The notes under the pieces are model-generated. The model did not search any database. It saw only the letters and a program-made list of their open reading frames with translations, and had not been told where the DNA came from. Shown here piece after piece: positions 2,815 through 6,598 of a DNA stretch of 6,598 bases (position 1 is its first letter; each line of letters opens with the position of its first letter). The DNA is from Chloroflexota bacterium (GTDB lineage: Bacteria; Chloroflexota; Anaerolineae; UBA7937; JACPPX01): the NCBI GenBank assembly GCA_016196905.1, contig JACPWV010000056.1:1-6598 (forward strand). Direction: 5' to 3'. The translations under genes and the position numbers were made by a program.

Positions 2815-2882
2815 CAAGGCTCGCCAGAGAACTTGACCGAGGAGGGCTGCTTGCCCAGACTCGGCCATAGGGGGTGATCGGC

Positions 2883-3467
2883 ATGGCCTGGATTCGGGTG
2901 ATCGAGCCACAAGAATCGGAGGGCGTCCTCGCTCAGCATTATGCTAAGGCGGTGCAACGGGCCGGCTGGGTGTGGAACATCGTCAAGATCATGAGCCTCA
3001 AGCCGGAGCAGATCAAGCACGCCATCGAAGGGATGTACGTGGGGATGATGCACGGCCCCTCGGGACTGAGCCGCGCCCAGCGGGAGATGATCGCCGTGGT
3101 CGTCTCCCGGGTCAACAGCTGTCATTACTGAATCCAGGCCCATGCCCATGACCTCCGGGAAGAGGTCGAGGATGAGGAACTGGTCGATCACATTCGAAAC
3201 GATTACCGACAGGCGAAGCTGGACCCCGCCACCCGGGCCATGCTGGACTACTGCGTGAAGTTGACCACCCGTCCCTGGGAGATGCGTGAGGACGATGTGG
3301 AAACGCTCCGCGCTCACGGCCTCAGCGATGCGGACATCCTAGACATCGTGCAGGTGGCTAGCTTCTTTAACTACATCAATCGGGTGGCCGATGCGCTGGG
3401 CGTAGATCCGGAGCCCTTCATGGAACCCTGGCCCTGGCAGGAACGGGCCTTGCCGTCGCTGAGCTGA
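2883..3467 (+). CDS. Selenocysteine-containing AhpD-like / CMD-family peroxidase-related protein (in-frame TGA at 3129-3131)
   Basis: Read through one TGA, this is a 194-residue protein of the carboxymuconolactone decarboxylase/AhpD superfamily, of the 'uncharacterised peroxidase-related' type, at the normal family length. AGGGGG (2869-2874) precedes the ATG at 2883. The N-terminus (MAWIRVIEP) and 'GPSGLSRAQREMIAVVVSRVNSCHY' match the family; the next residue, normally the second Cys of CxxC, is encoded by TGA (residue 83). After it come IQAHAHDL, 'LDPATRAMLDYCVKLT', 'LSDADILDIVQV' and the conserved 'FFNYINRVADALGV'. E68, C80, Sec83 and H87 have the spacing of mycobacterial AhpD E118, C130, C133, H137, the proton relay and redox pair. 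A SECIS-like hairpin follows the TGA. Sec would replace the cysteine that attacks peroxide in AhpD, suggesting a thiol/selenol peroxidase or disulfide reductase. Its substrate and reductant are unknown. The alternative, a nonsense-mutated pseudogene, is less likely given the exact position and intact remainder. Confidence 0.87.
3129..3131 (+). other. UGA predicted to be recoded as selenocysteine (Sec83)
   Basis: The codon follows TGT-CAT-TAC (C80-H81-Y82), making CHYU in place of the family's CHYC. It is the only in-frame stop between 2883 and the terminal TGA at 3465-3467. TGG encodes Trp at residues 3, 29, 31, 132, 183 and 185, which argues against a code where UGA means Trp. Confidence 0.85.
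3145..3172 (+). promoter_or_regulatory. Bacterial SECIS-like stem-loop
   Basis: GACCTC (3150-3155) pairs perfectly with GAGGTC (3162-3167), closed below by a U-G pair (3149/3168) and, past an A-A mismatch, by two C-G pairs (3147/3170, 3146/3171). The loop is CGGGAA (3156-3161). The loop begins 24 nt after the UGA and has G as its second base; both fit the published bacterial SECIS pattern (loop roughly 16-37 nt from UGA, a G among the first two loop bases). It lies inside the coding frame, as bacterial SECIS elements do, and would recruit SelB with Sec-tRNA. Confidence 0.7.
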
Positions 3468-3787: not shown

Positions 3788-4873
3788 CTACGCCTCGCCA
3801 GGCCCTCCGGCCAACAAGCTCATGTGCTCCGCACGTAGGGACAATCTTATGTGCTGGCCGGGATGGGGAAGCCCCTTGGCCTGGGCGTCGATCTGGAAGG
3901 TCAAGGTTTGGCCCTGCGCCCCGTGGACGAGGAGTTGATAGTGGTCACCCCGAAAAGAGCACTCCTGGACGATCACCTCGATCAAGTTCTCGCCGCCCCC
4001 TGGGCTGGTCAGGATCTGGGCCGCCTCCGGGCGAATGAGCAGGGTGAGTTCATCGCCCGCCTCAGGCGGGGGTGCCGGGCGCGGGTCCAGATTGAAAAGC
4101 CCCCAAGGAGTCTCCACCCACAGCCCGGGGCGGTCGGCGCTGAGGTGTGCGGGCAACAGGTTGGTCAGCCCCAGGAAGTGAGCCACGAAGGGGCTGTTGG
4201 GGTTCTGGTAGACCTCGGCCGGCTGGCCCTCCTGCACCAGGCGCCCCTGGTGCATGATGATCAGGCGATCGGCCACGGCGAAGGCCTCTTCCTGATCGTG
4301 GGTCACGTATAGGGTGGTGATCCCGATGCGTTTGAGCAGCGGACGCAGCTCGTTCATGAGCCGCTCGCGCAGGGGGCGATCCAGGGAACCCAAGGGCTCA
4401 TCCAGCATCAGCAGGCGGGGCTTCGGGGCCAGGCTGCGGGCCAGGGCCACCCGTTGCTGCTCGCCGCCGGAGAGGCTGTGCACATCGTGCCTCGCGTAGT
4501 CGGTGAGGTCCACCAACGCCAAGGCCTCCTGCGCACGCCGCTGCACCTCCGCGGGCGAGAGCCCCGCCATGCGCAGGCCGAAAGCCACGTTGTCCAAAAC
4601 ATTCTTATGTGGAAACAGCGCGTAGTCTTGGAACATCAGGCCGAACCCGCGCTGGTGAGGAGCAGTGGAGGTGATGTCCGCCCCCGCGAAACGAAGCTCC
4701 CCTCGATCGGGCCGTTCCAGGCCGGCGATCGCCCGCAAGAGCGTGGTTTTGCCACAGCCGCTGGGGCCCAGCACGCACAAGATCTCCGCTGCCTCGATCT
4801 CGAAGCTGACATCGACCAGGGCCCTTTTTTGTCCGAAACTTTTATCGATGTGGCGAACCTCTAGTAACCCCAT
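3788..4873 (-). CDS. ABC importer ATPase with TOBE domain (iron/thiamine/polyamine type)
   Basis: The 361-residue protein is the ATP-hydrolysing subunit of a binding-protein-dependent importer and acts as a dimer on the cytoplasmic face of the membrane. All nucleotide motifs are intact: Walker A GPSGCGKTT (36-44), Q-loop Q82, signature LSGGEQQ (134-140), Walker B LLMLDEP (154-160), D-loop SLD (163-165) and H-loop H192. From about residue 235 a C-terminal extension ends in a TOBE-type regulatory domain (roughly 285-355, 'LTLLIRPEAAQIL', 'LSLRAEHMSLL'), as in PotA, CysA and FbpC and unlike the shorter ThiQ. The ATG at 4873 has only AAGG directly upstream, so initiation may depend on translational coupling. 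The partner permease lies 169 bp upstream in the same direction. The fused permease points to an iron(III) or thiamine family rather than polyamines. Confidence 0.93.
   Translation of the reverse strand: MGLLEVRHIDKSFGQKRALVDVSFEIEAAEILCVLGPSGCGKTTLLRAIAGLERPDRGELRFAGADITSTAPHQRGFGLMFQDYALFPHKNVLDNVAFGLRMAGLSPAEVQRRAQEALALVDLTDYARHDVHSLSGGEQQRVALARSLAPKPRLLMLDEPLGSLDRPLRERLMNELRPLLKRIGITTLYVTHDQEEAFAVADRLIIMHQGRLVQEGQPAEVYQNPNSPFVAHFLGLTNLLPAHLSADRPGLWVETPWGLFNLDPRPAPPPEAGDELTLLIRPEAAQILTSPGGGENLIEVIVQECSFRGDHYQLLVHGAQGQTLTFQIDAQAKGLPHPGQHIRLSLRAEHMSLLAGGPGEA
4055..4070. repeat. Short GC palindrome, copy 2 (inside the ATPase gene)
   Basis: CCCGCCTCAGGCGGG (4056-4070) is the exact reverse complement of the palindrome core at 3597-3611, and identity extends one base further (4055). 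It lies in the ATPase coding sequence where the frame reads PPPEAGDE, within the linker before the TOBE domain. Confidence 0.5.
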
Positions 4874-5042: not shown

Positions 5043-6598
5043 TCAAAACTCTCCTTTCTCGCCAGAGCGAAAGCGCTCGATGGCCAGGATGCCCAGGCTG
5101 CACACCAGCATCAATAGGCTGCTCATGGCCAGGGCTTGGCCGTAGTTGAGAGCGCCCGGCTGGCCCAGAAAGCGGAAGATGGCCACGGGCATGGTGGGGA
5201 ACTCGGGACGGGCGATCAGGGAGGTGGCCCCGAACTCCCCCAGCGAGATGGTGAAGGCGAACACAGAGCCCACCAGGAGCGCGGGGGAGACGATGGGCAG
5301 GTCTATTTCCCTCCAGACCCGCCCGGGCGAGGCTCCCAATACTGCCGCCGCCTCGCGCAGGTGAGGATGGATGCTCCGTAACACGGGCAGCAGGCTGCGC
5401 ACCACGAAGGGGAAGGCCACCAGGCCGTGAGCCAGGGGCAGGAGCAGGGGGGAGGCTCTCAGGTTCAGCGGAGGCTCATCCAAGGCTAGGATATACCCGA
5501 AGCCCAGGGTGACCGCCGAGGTCCCTAAGGGCAACATGAAGATCGGGTCCAGAGTGGCGCGGATCACCCCTTTACGCTGGGTCAGCAAATCGGCGGCCAG
5601 GAGGCCCAGCCCCACCGCCAAGGCCACCGTGGCCGCAGCCACCAGCAGCGAGTTGCGCACCGCTTCCAGCGGCGGCACGAACAGGATGGAACCCCGCGGA
5701 TTGGTGAAAAGCGCCAGGTAGTGATCCACCCCGTATCCATCCCTCCCCAAGAGGGAGCGTTCGACCAAGGCCAAAAGTGGGGTCAGCAGCAGGACGACCA
5801 TGAAGCCAATATTGGCGGCCACCCAGGCGATCTCCCGCGCTGTCTGCGGCCGGCGCTGAACCAGGCGCTGAGCCCGGAGGGGCAAGGGTACTGAACTGGC
5901 AGCTTGCAGGTGAGTGTACAGCCACATCGAGATGAAGGTGAACCCAATCTGGGTCAGGGAGAGGGCGGCCGCCAAGGGCAGATTGAAGAGATTGACGGTT
6001 TGCTGGTATATCTCTACCTCCAAGGTGGCGAAGCGGGGACCGCCCAGGATCAAGATCACCCCAAAAGAAGTGAAATCGAAGATGAAGACCAGGAGGGCCG
6101 CGGCCAGGATGGCGGGTCTCAGCAGGGGCAAGGTCACCTCCCCAAAGGTGTGCCAATGATCGGCCCCCAGCGCCCGCGCCGCCTCCTCCAAGCGTGGACC
6201 CAGGTTGGCCCAAAAGCCCCCCACCATTCGCAGGATCACCGTGTAATTATAAAAGACGTGGGCGAGGAGAATGATCCACAGGGTATGCTGCAAATTGAGC
6301 AGCGGTTGCTCGCGGTGAAAGAGGGCCATGAGCAACTGATTGAGCCATCCCCGCGGGCCCAGCGTGGCGGCGAAGGCGGCCGCCACCACCACGGCGGGCA
6401 TAACGAAAGGGATGGTGGTGAGGGCCTGGAGGAACGCCTTCCCGGGGAAGGTATACTTGGCGAAAACGTGGGCAGCCGGCAGCGCCACCAAGAGGGTAAG
6501 CAACGTCGAGAGGGTGGCCTGCCAGACGGTGAATCCCAGGGTCTGGGCGAAGAGGGGGCTGCGCAGCAGCTCAGCCAGGGTGGAGAGATCCAGGGATC
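5043..6598 (-). CDS. ABC importer permease, fused two-domain (ThiP/FbpB type), 5' end missing
   Basis: The frame is open from the right edge to a TGA at 5045-5043, giving 517 visible residues; the true start lies outside, probably a few tens of residues further. A TTG at 6503 is an internal Leu codon, since the upstream residues (FTVWQATLSTLLTLLVALPAAHVFA) continue a transmembrane helix. The protein holds two homologous binding-protein-dependent permease domains in tandem, each with several hydrophobic helices and an EAA loop that docks on the ATPase: 'EEAARALGADHWHTFGEVTLP' (about 6188-6126) and 'REAAAVLGASPGRVWREIDLP' (about 5357-5298). Such fusions are typical of iron(III) (FbpB/AfuB) and thiamine (ThiP) importers, where one polypeptide forms the whole channel. 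It pairs with the ATPase encoded just downstream. The binding protein gene would be expected off the right edge. Confidence 0.92.
   Translation of the reverse strand, partial: SLDLSTLAELLRSPLFAQTLGFTVWQATLSTLLTLLVALPAAHVFAKYTFPGKAFLQALTTIPFVMPAVVVAAAFAATLGPRGWLNQLLMALFHREQPLLNLQHTLWIILLAHVFYNYTVILRMVGGFWANLGPRLEEAARALGADHWHTFGEVTLPLLRPAILAAALLVFIFDFTSFGVILILGGPRFATLEVEIYQQTVNLFNLPLAAALSLTQIGFTFISMWLYTHLQAASSVPLPLRAQRLVQRRPQTAREIAWVAANIGFMVVLLLTPLLALVERSLLGRDGYGVDHYLALFTNPRGSILFVPPLEAVRNSLLVAAATVALAVGLGLLAADLLTQRKGVIRATLDPIFMLPLGTSAVTLGFGYILALDEPPLNLRASPLLLPLAHGLVAFPFVVRSLLPVLRSIHPHLREAAAVLGASPGRVWREIDLPIVSPALLVGSVFAFTISLGEFGATSLIARPEFPTMPVAIFRFLGQPGALNYGQALAMSSLLMLVCSLGILAIERFRSGEKGEF

Follow-up and report, generated by a model that had tools for sequence, protein, structure and literature searches.

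A predicted CxxU selenoprotein of the AhpD-like family TIGR01926 in an uncultured Chloroflexota bacterium

Introduction

AhpD-like proteins with selenocysteine (Sec) in a CxxU motif have been reported several times. In 2005, an 'AhpD-like protein' (COG2128, CXXU) was represented by 27 Sargasso Sea sequences (PMC1088965), and in 2006 AhpD-like (COG2128) was counted, with two members, among the bacterial selenoprotein families (PMC1794560). An 'AhpD-like 1' group, again COG2128 and CxxU, comprises 299 GOS sequences (PMC2398784), COG2128 (YciW) CxxU is listed in PMC9312934, and an 'AhpD-like protein TIGR01926 CxxU' appears in a table of a 2026 review (PMC13188914). By these entries, the family itself is already known as a selenoprotein. 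The protein described below is thus not new in kind, because the Sec-containing CxxU form of COG2128/TIGR01926 has been published.

In AhpD of Mycobacterium tuberculosis, the proton relay consists of Glu118, Cys130, His132, Cys133 and His137, and both cysteines are catalytic (PMC3141380). Human Sestrin2 keeps the first cysteine only, and it is this residue that does the chemistry (PMC4674687). A Deinococcus radiodurans mutant that lacks its AhpD-like protein is sensitive to H2O2; complementation with the wild type protein gives back part of the resistance, and far more of it than do variants in the two CxxC cysteines (PMC8945050).

Here, we analyse a gene with an in-frame TGA in a window of 6,598 nucleotides, the window being the whole stretch of DNA studied, from a metagenome-assembled Chloroflexota bacterium.

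Results

The gene and its TGA codon

When TGA is translated as U, the frame at 2883-3467 of the forward strand gives 194 residues with one internal U, residue 83 in the motif CHYU, and ends at a terminal TGA (3465-3467). The standard ORF list breaks this gene into 2874-3131 (85 aa) and 3240-3467 (75 aa), which bears out the statement of the first-pass annotation that it is hidden as two ORFs. That annotation had also placed a lone in-frame TGA at the second Cys of a CxxC motif, and this is what is found at 3129-3131, with family sequence on both sides. The spacing E68-C80-U83-H87 (12, 3 and 4 residues) is equal to that of Glu118-Cys130-Cys133-His137 in the mycobacterial enzyme, again as it had been read. 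The parts of the gene are the following.

2869..2879, forward strand: Shine-Dalgarno-like AGGGGGTGATC, 3 nt before the ATG at 2883; read from the sequence, with a presumed function
2883..3467, forward strand: coding sequence of the 194-residue CxxU AhpD-like (TIGR01926) protein, ATG to terminal TGA; by translation, profile match and predicted fold
3084..3086, forward strand: E68, position of the proton-relay glutamate; invariant in 52 sequences, putative role by analogy with AhpD Glu118
3120..3122, forward strand: C80, first residue of the CxxU motif; invariant in 52 sequences
3126..3128, forward strand: Y82, counterpart of Sestrin2 Tyr127 and YP_296737.1 Tyr88; invariant, placed by motif spacing and the residues named in PMC4674687
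3129..3131, forward strand: in-frame TGA, predicted selenocysteine U83; the same codon is TGA in relatives
3141..3143, forward strand: H87, position of the proton-relay histidine; invariant in 52 sequences
3150..3167, forward strand: predicted bacterial SECIS hairpin, stem GACCTC/GAGGTC and apical loop CGGGAA; by fold and conservation of its register

Family and fold

In a profile search, residues 3-178 align with positions 2-177 of the 178 in TIGR01926 ('peroxidase-related'), scoring 169.5 bits against a cut-off of 81.8. The joined frame also matches Pfam CMD and, marginally, Pfam PA26 (sestrin, PF04636; 30.1 bits, cut-off 29.4). Three other models stay below their thresholds: TIGR00777, which is AhpD proper (24.7 bits against 191.95), NF041238 or AhpD_rel_CFYUT (74.4 against 175) and the YciW-related NF053654, GroundWater_YciW (22.4 against 310). 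With 194 residues and one CMD domain, the protein lies outside the definition of a sestrin, which combines Sesn-A and Sesn-C.

The active site E-x11-C-x-Y-[C/U]-x3-H is present on a predicted AhpD-like helical fold. L62, E68, N78, C80, Y82 and H87 are invariant in an alignment of 52 sequences, comprising the query and 51 picked from 120 listed homologues (of 361), and AlphaFold2 gave a mean pLDDT of 94.4 from these 52. The best Foldseek matches are chains of 6K40, 3C1L, 2PRR, 2PFX and 2OYO, with TM scores of 0.79-0.85 by query length, and Sestrin2 chains reach 0.65-0.67 on the same measure. The top match, 6K40, is probably the D. radiodurans AhpD-like protein treated in PMC8945050.

Conservation of the TGA among relatives

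The 120 listed of 361 database homologues were aligned at the Sec column, where 109 have Cys, nine Trp (P0003, P0005-P0011 and P0095), one Arg (P0012) and one Gly (P0013). The Trp residues probably arose in public gene calls that applied code 4 to a UGA. As this search was limited to proteins 0.55 to 1.75 times the length of the query, halves cut at the UGA cannot show in it.

In a sample of 400 genomes from the phylum, 67 have a match (E 1e-20 or better), the host among them. At the 77 loci examined, a few of which are weak matches, the codon is TGA in 38 (own included), TGC in 29 and TGT in eight, which supplies the comparison of Cys and TGA at position 83 that the first-pass annotation had called for; the other two loci lack the motif. 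One locus without the CxxC motif is L078, a family member in genome G267, which has SelB over cut-off. TGA forms thus make up 38/75 of the motif-bearing loci from this protein-query search. The earlier view that the peroxidase-related branch usually has CxxC does not agree with this count, nor with the papers of 2005, 2008, 2022 and 2026, whose entries give a Sec form of COG2128/TIGR01926 as CxxU.

The 37 further TGA loci are spread over 34 genomes of the phylum. All 38 TGAs, at loci found without a pattern that requires TGA, occupy the second position of CxxC, and the placement of this codon in 38/38 TGA-bearing loci (own included) among the 77 examined is more than chance. Random stops elsewhere in relatives had been named as a sign of a pseudogene; inside the family domain of the 38 TGA loci there is no other stop, apart from one at the C-terminal end of L035, and the pseudogene reading is disfavoured.

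A second scan of named genomes, using a pattern that requires TGA, returned at least 118 stretches, of which 80 were taken as loci. In 76 of these the family score exceeds 90 bits and TGA stands at the codon, seven of them having another stop close to where the match ends; the remaining four (L149, L158, L174 and L186) reach 30-49 bits only. Since the pattern demands TGA, these loci carry no information on the share of TGA forms. At least 15 named phyla are present among the 75 pattern-scan rows placed in the tree described below, and TGA-bearing relatives are mostly 35-60% identical to the query. A single-protein scan of named genomes confirmed no relative.

Selection after the TGA and the tree

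The reading frame is maintained downstream of the TGA. Amino-acid identity before and after it is 0.63 and 0.57 for L018, 0.56 and 0.60 for L182, and 0.51 and 0.54 for L178. After the TGA, codon position 3 is the commonest site of difference in 7/7 TGA relatives compared and holds, against L018, 48 of 106 nucleotide differences.

These results bear on whether the gene is a nonsense pseudogene or the TGA a sequencing error for TGC or TGT. The base is known from one metagenome assembly, which leaves room for an error, but the gene has a single stop with the frame kept after it, and relatives from 15 named phyla, most of them 35-60% identical, have TGA at the equivalent codon. Such conservation makes a pseudogene or an erroneous base very improbable, and this reading is set aside.

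A FastTree tree was made from 187 rows with the Sec column masked; it is unrooted and quick, with long branches flagged. On it, the Sec/Cys state changes eight times (shuffled mean 52.8) when the nine W, one R and one G rows are scored as Sec. The query falls within a supported set of 59 rows, with 45 TGA, nine W, one G and four Cys, many of the 45 TGA rows stemming from the pattern scan that requires TGA. Eleven rows of this set come from the protein-query genome search, and 11/11 are TGA, own included. The closest row is L018, from the same class and 60% identical, followed by P0011 and by rows of Planctomycetota and Acidobacteriota. Relatives of the same class (L019, L030 and L031) are placed among the Chloroflexota rows.

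The hairpin after the UGA

The predicted SECIS element is the hairpin GACCUC-CGGGAA-GAGGUC at 3150-3167, whose apical loop starts 24 nt after the TGA. Over 57 nt the predicted fold has an energy of -22.3 kcal/mol (z -2.08), a value matched by 7/200 shuffles. A survey covered 113 TGA loci, the remaining one of the 114 being too short, together with 33 of the 37 Cys loci, namely those scoring at least 90 bits. In 99/113 TGA loci versus 5/33 Cys loci (Fisher P 8e-15, ignoring relatedness), the best hairpin has six or more base pairs and carries G as the first or second base of its loop; when these genes were searched at seven other offsets, such a hairpin was present in 5 to 35 of 113, the 35 at -60.

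The query's own register, with all six pairs, is complete in 28/113 TGA loci (own included) and in 0/33 Cys loci. When the partner strand is slid by one to three bases, the register is complete in 0 to 5 TGA loci. At five of the six pairs, both bases have changed and still pair (C21-G34, for instance, becomes G-C or U-A), a count made in 28 loci that were themselves selected for pairing. Against synonymous recoding, the query hairpin is not significant (P about 0.13); the median P is 0.17 for TGA loci versus 0.45 for Cys loci, and 3/38 TGA loci reach 0.05. Because this signal is weak, part of the hairpin pattern may reflect the encoded residues.

Four main registers, with the loop starting 17, 19, 24 or 25 nt after the UGA, account for 82/113 TGA loci. 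They cluster on the tree, with nine changes (shuffled mean 44.2), which would fit a recoding signal that has shifted its position inside the reading frame. Rfam gave no match in the window at gathering scores, and a promoter and terminator scan of the window gave nothing useful.

Selenium machinery in the host and its relatives

The host assembly is 1.41 Mb in 227 contigs and is 64.91% complete. A search for selA, selB, selC and selD had been proposed, and half of it succeeded: SelA (582.8 bits) and SelD (367.5 bits) are present, whereas SelB and tRNA-Sec gave nothing over cut-off in this 65%-complete assembly. Here, the SelD gene has an in-frame TGA of its own and is predicted to be a second selenoprotein of the host.

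316-1776 of its contig, complement strand: SelD of the host genome (L016, G000:C6), in-frame TGA in the motif CAGU; by profile match

For SelB there were five matches in the assembly, none over cut-off, and the best two (L001 and L002) are IF-2 and LepA, judged from their ORFs. For tRNA-Sec there were nine, none over cut-off, the best at 41.4 against 47; eight candidate loci are tRNA-Ser, -Leu, -Trp, -Thr or -Gly by ARAGORN. With SelA, and SelD carrying its own TGA, both encoded by the host, the proposal of a CxxU selenoprotein of the AhpD/CMD superfamily is supported.

The evidence bears on two readings without Sec. The undetected SelB and tRNA-Sec in an assembly 65% complete would suit a pseudogene, but SelA and the TGA-bearing SelD speak against one. 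Alternatively, Cys, Ser or Trp could be inserted at the UGA by a suppressor tRNA or one with a UCA anticodon, or the code could be reassigned, for which one can cite the tRNA-Sec not found in the 65%-complete assembly and the nine W, one R and one G at the Sec column among the 120 listed of 361 homologues. Such decoding is argued against by SelA and by SelD with its own in-frame TGA, by the hairpin after the UGA across TGA loci and by tRNA-Sec in most TGA genomes (see below). In addition, the ORFs of the CxxU gene and of the permease in the window terminate in TGA; since both end in this codon and Sec machinery is present, code 4 (TGA as Trp) is set aside. Decoding as another residue is accordingly considered highly unlikely, if marginally less so than a pseudogene, and Sec insertion is the reading followed below.

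SelA and SelB are over cut-off in 7/7 order-mates from other families (G002-G008). SelD with one in-frame TGA, counted with its position unassigned, is present in 6/7 of these, and tRNA-Sec at 70 bits or more in 4/7. In G001, which is of the same family, is the nearest genome and is 80% complete, none of SelA, SelB, SelD and tRNA-Sec is over cut-off, the tRNA-Sec search of relatives' genomes having used stricter filters that lose weak matches. Selenium use has possibly been lost in this sister lineage. The CxxU protein finds no match in any of the eight order-mates (G001-G008), so the gene is patchy in this order, probably through loss or transfer unless the contig is misbinned.

The co-occurrence sample consists of 67 genomes with a match, 34 with TGA (G018 included) and 33 without (including G267, which lacks the motif). 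SelB is over cut-off in 31/34 TGA genomes versus 23/33 without TGA (P 0.03). With the threshold for tRNA-Sec set at 54 bits, above a group of second matches at 48-52 bits, the figures are 28/34 versus 23/33 (P 0.26), and for SelB or tRNA-Sec they are 33/34 versus 26/33 (P 0.03). G417, the sole TGA genome that lacks both, encodes SelA and SelD with TGA. Co-occurrence discriminates weakly, because SelB is also present in 23/33 genomes whose copy lacks TGA.

Neighbourhood

Around 114 TGA loci there are 199 neighbour ORFs, of which 99 (same strand, under 200 nt away) were scanned. No family is present in more than 5/99; the commonest are short-chain dehydrogenases (5/99) and bacterial globins (4/99). 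In the window, a glycine-rich RRM RNA-binding protein (2476-2814) lies on the same strand, 68 nt upstream of the CxxU gene, and RRM is not among the best 25 of 134 families in the 99 neighbours. On the reverse strand, the window encodes an ABC importer ATPase of the molybdate/sulfate/thiamine/phosphonate class (3788-4873) and a permease of the same class with two permease domains (5043-6596), which is cut by the window end.

Discussion

The gene most likely makes a CxxU, TIGR01926-type AhpD-like peroxidase, predicted to reduce H2O2 or organic hydroperoxides, and we put the probability of this reading at about 0.85. The UGA would be recoded by Sec-tRNA made with SelA, by SelB and by the hairpin at 3150-3167. 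In M. tuberculosis AhpD, Cys133 is regarded as the residue that loses its proton, and by this analogy Sec83 would be the attacking residue. Sec83, probably deprotonated, would attack the peroxide and Cys80 would resolve, with E68, Y82 and H87 as a putative proton relay. By the same analogy, catalysis would pass through a selenenyl-sulfide between Cys80 and Sec83, which a lipoyl- or thioredoxin-type donor would then reduce.

The assignment of Sec83 as the peroxide-attacking residue is probable, and the analogies do not all agree with it. Cys80 may instead attack the peroxide and Sec83 resolve, or the protein may be mainly a selenol/thiol adaptor for a partner peroxiredoxin and no peroxidase itself. 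Attack by Cys80 is the way Sestrin2 points, where the first cysteine (Cys125, equivalent to C80) is the sole one of the pair and carries out the chemistry (PMC4674687). AhpD has also been described as an adaptor for AhpC, and PA0269 has a weak intrinsic peroxidase rate (both PMC3141380). However, Sec is confined to the second position in the 38 TGA loci located without a TGA-requiring pattern, which suggests that the second position is the critical nucleophile, and no peroxiredoxin is among the families matched by two or more of the 99 close same-strand neighbours. As AhpD and Sestrin2 point opposite ways, weight is split between attack by Sec83 and this alternative, which is a real contender though the less probable of the two; attack by Sec83 is preferred.

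A broader proposal is advanced tentatively, at somewhat less than even odds. TIGR01926 may contain a deep clade of many phyla that is mainly selenoprotein with occasional Cys replacements, in which the SECIS hairpin moved repeatedly in frame (17, 19, 24 and 25 nt), the recoding signals choosing residues of the helix after the active site. The four main distances between UGA and hairpin across the family are a modest new lead.

With TGA forms at 38/75 motif-bearing loci, a widespread redox enzyme is masked by ordinary gene calling. The uncultured host lineage joins the selenium-using bacteria. Since the enzyme occurs naturally with Sec or with Cys, it provides a means of asking what selenium buys in this active site, and the closeness of the fold to a domain of human Sestrin2 adds to the value of this comparison.

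Comparison with known systems

The nearest system is the AhpD-like selenoprotein family (COG2128/YciW), with which the protein shares the TIGR01926 model, the CxxU motif and Sec at the second position. It differs in organism only, and within what the cited papers give for that family no protein feature was found to separate the two. M. tuberculosis AhpD (TIGR00777) has a matching active-site spacing, with Tyr82 here at the position of His132, but its motif is near the C-terminal end of its chain (PMC3141380) and its fold match is weak (1lw1, E 0.039).

The Sesn-A domain of Sestrin2 shares the Cys, the Tyr at +2 and the His at +7 (C125, Y127 and H132, equivalent to C80, Y82 and H87). Sestrin2 has Leu128 at the Sec83 position and adds a Sesn-C domain that is absent here (PMC4674687).

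The Cys structures 6K40, 2PRR (YP_296737.1), 3C1L, 2OYO and 2PFX, which are 31-40% identical to the query, have the fold in common with it (TM 0.79-0.85). The alignments of 2PFX, 3C1L and 6K40 show CxxC in place of CxxU. In YP_296737.1, the E-C-Y-H spacing is identical (Glu74-Cys86-Cys89-His93 there), and the motif is CxxC where it is CxxU here (PMC4674687).
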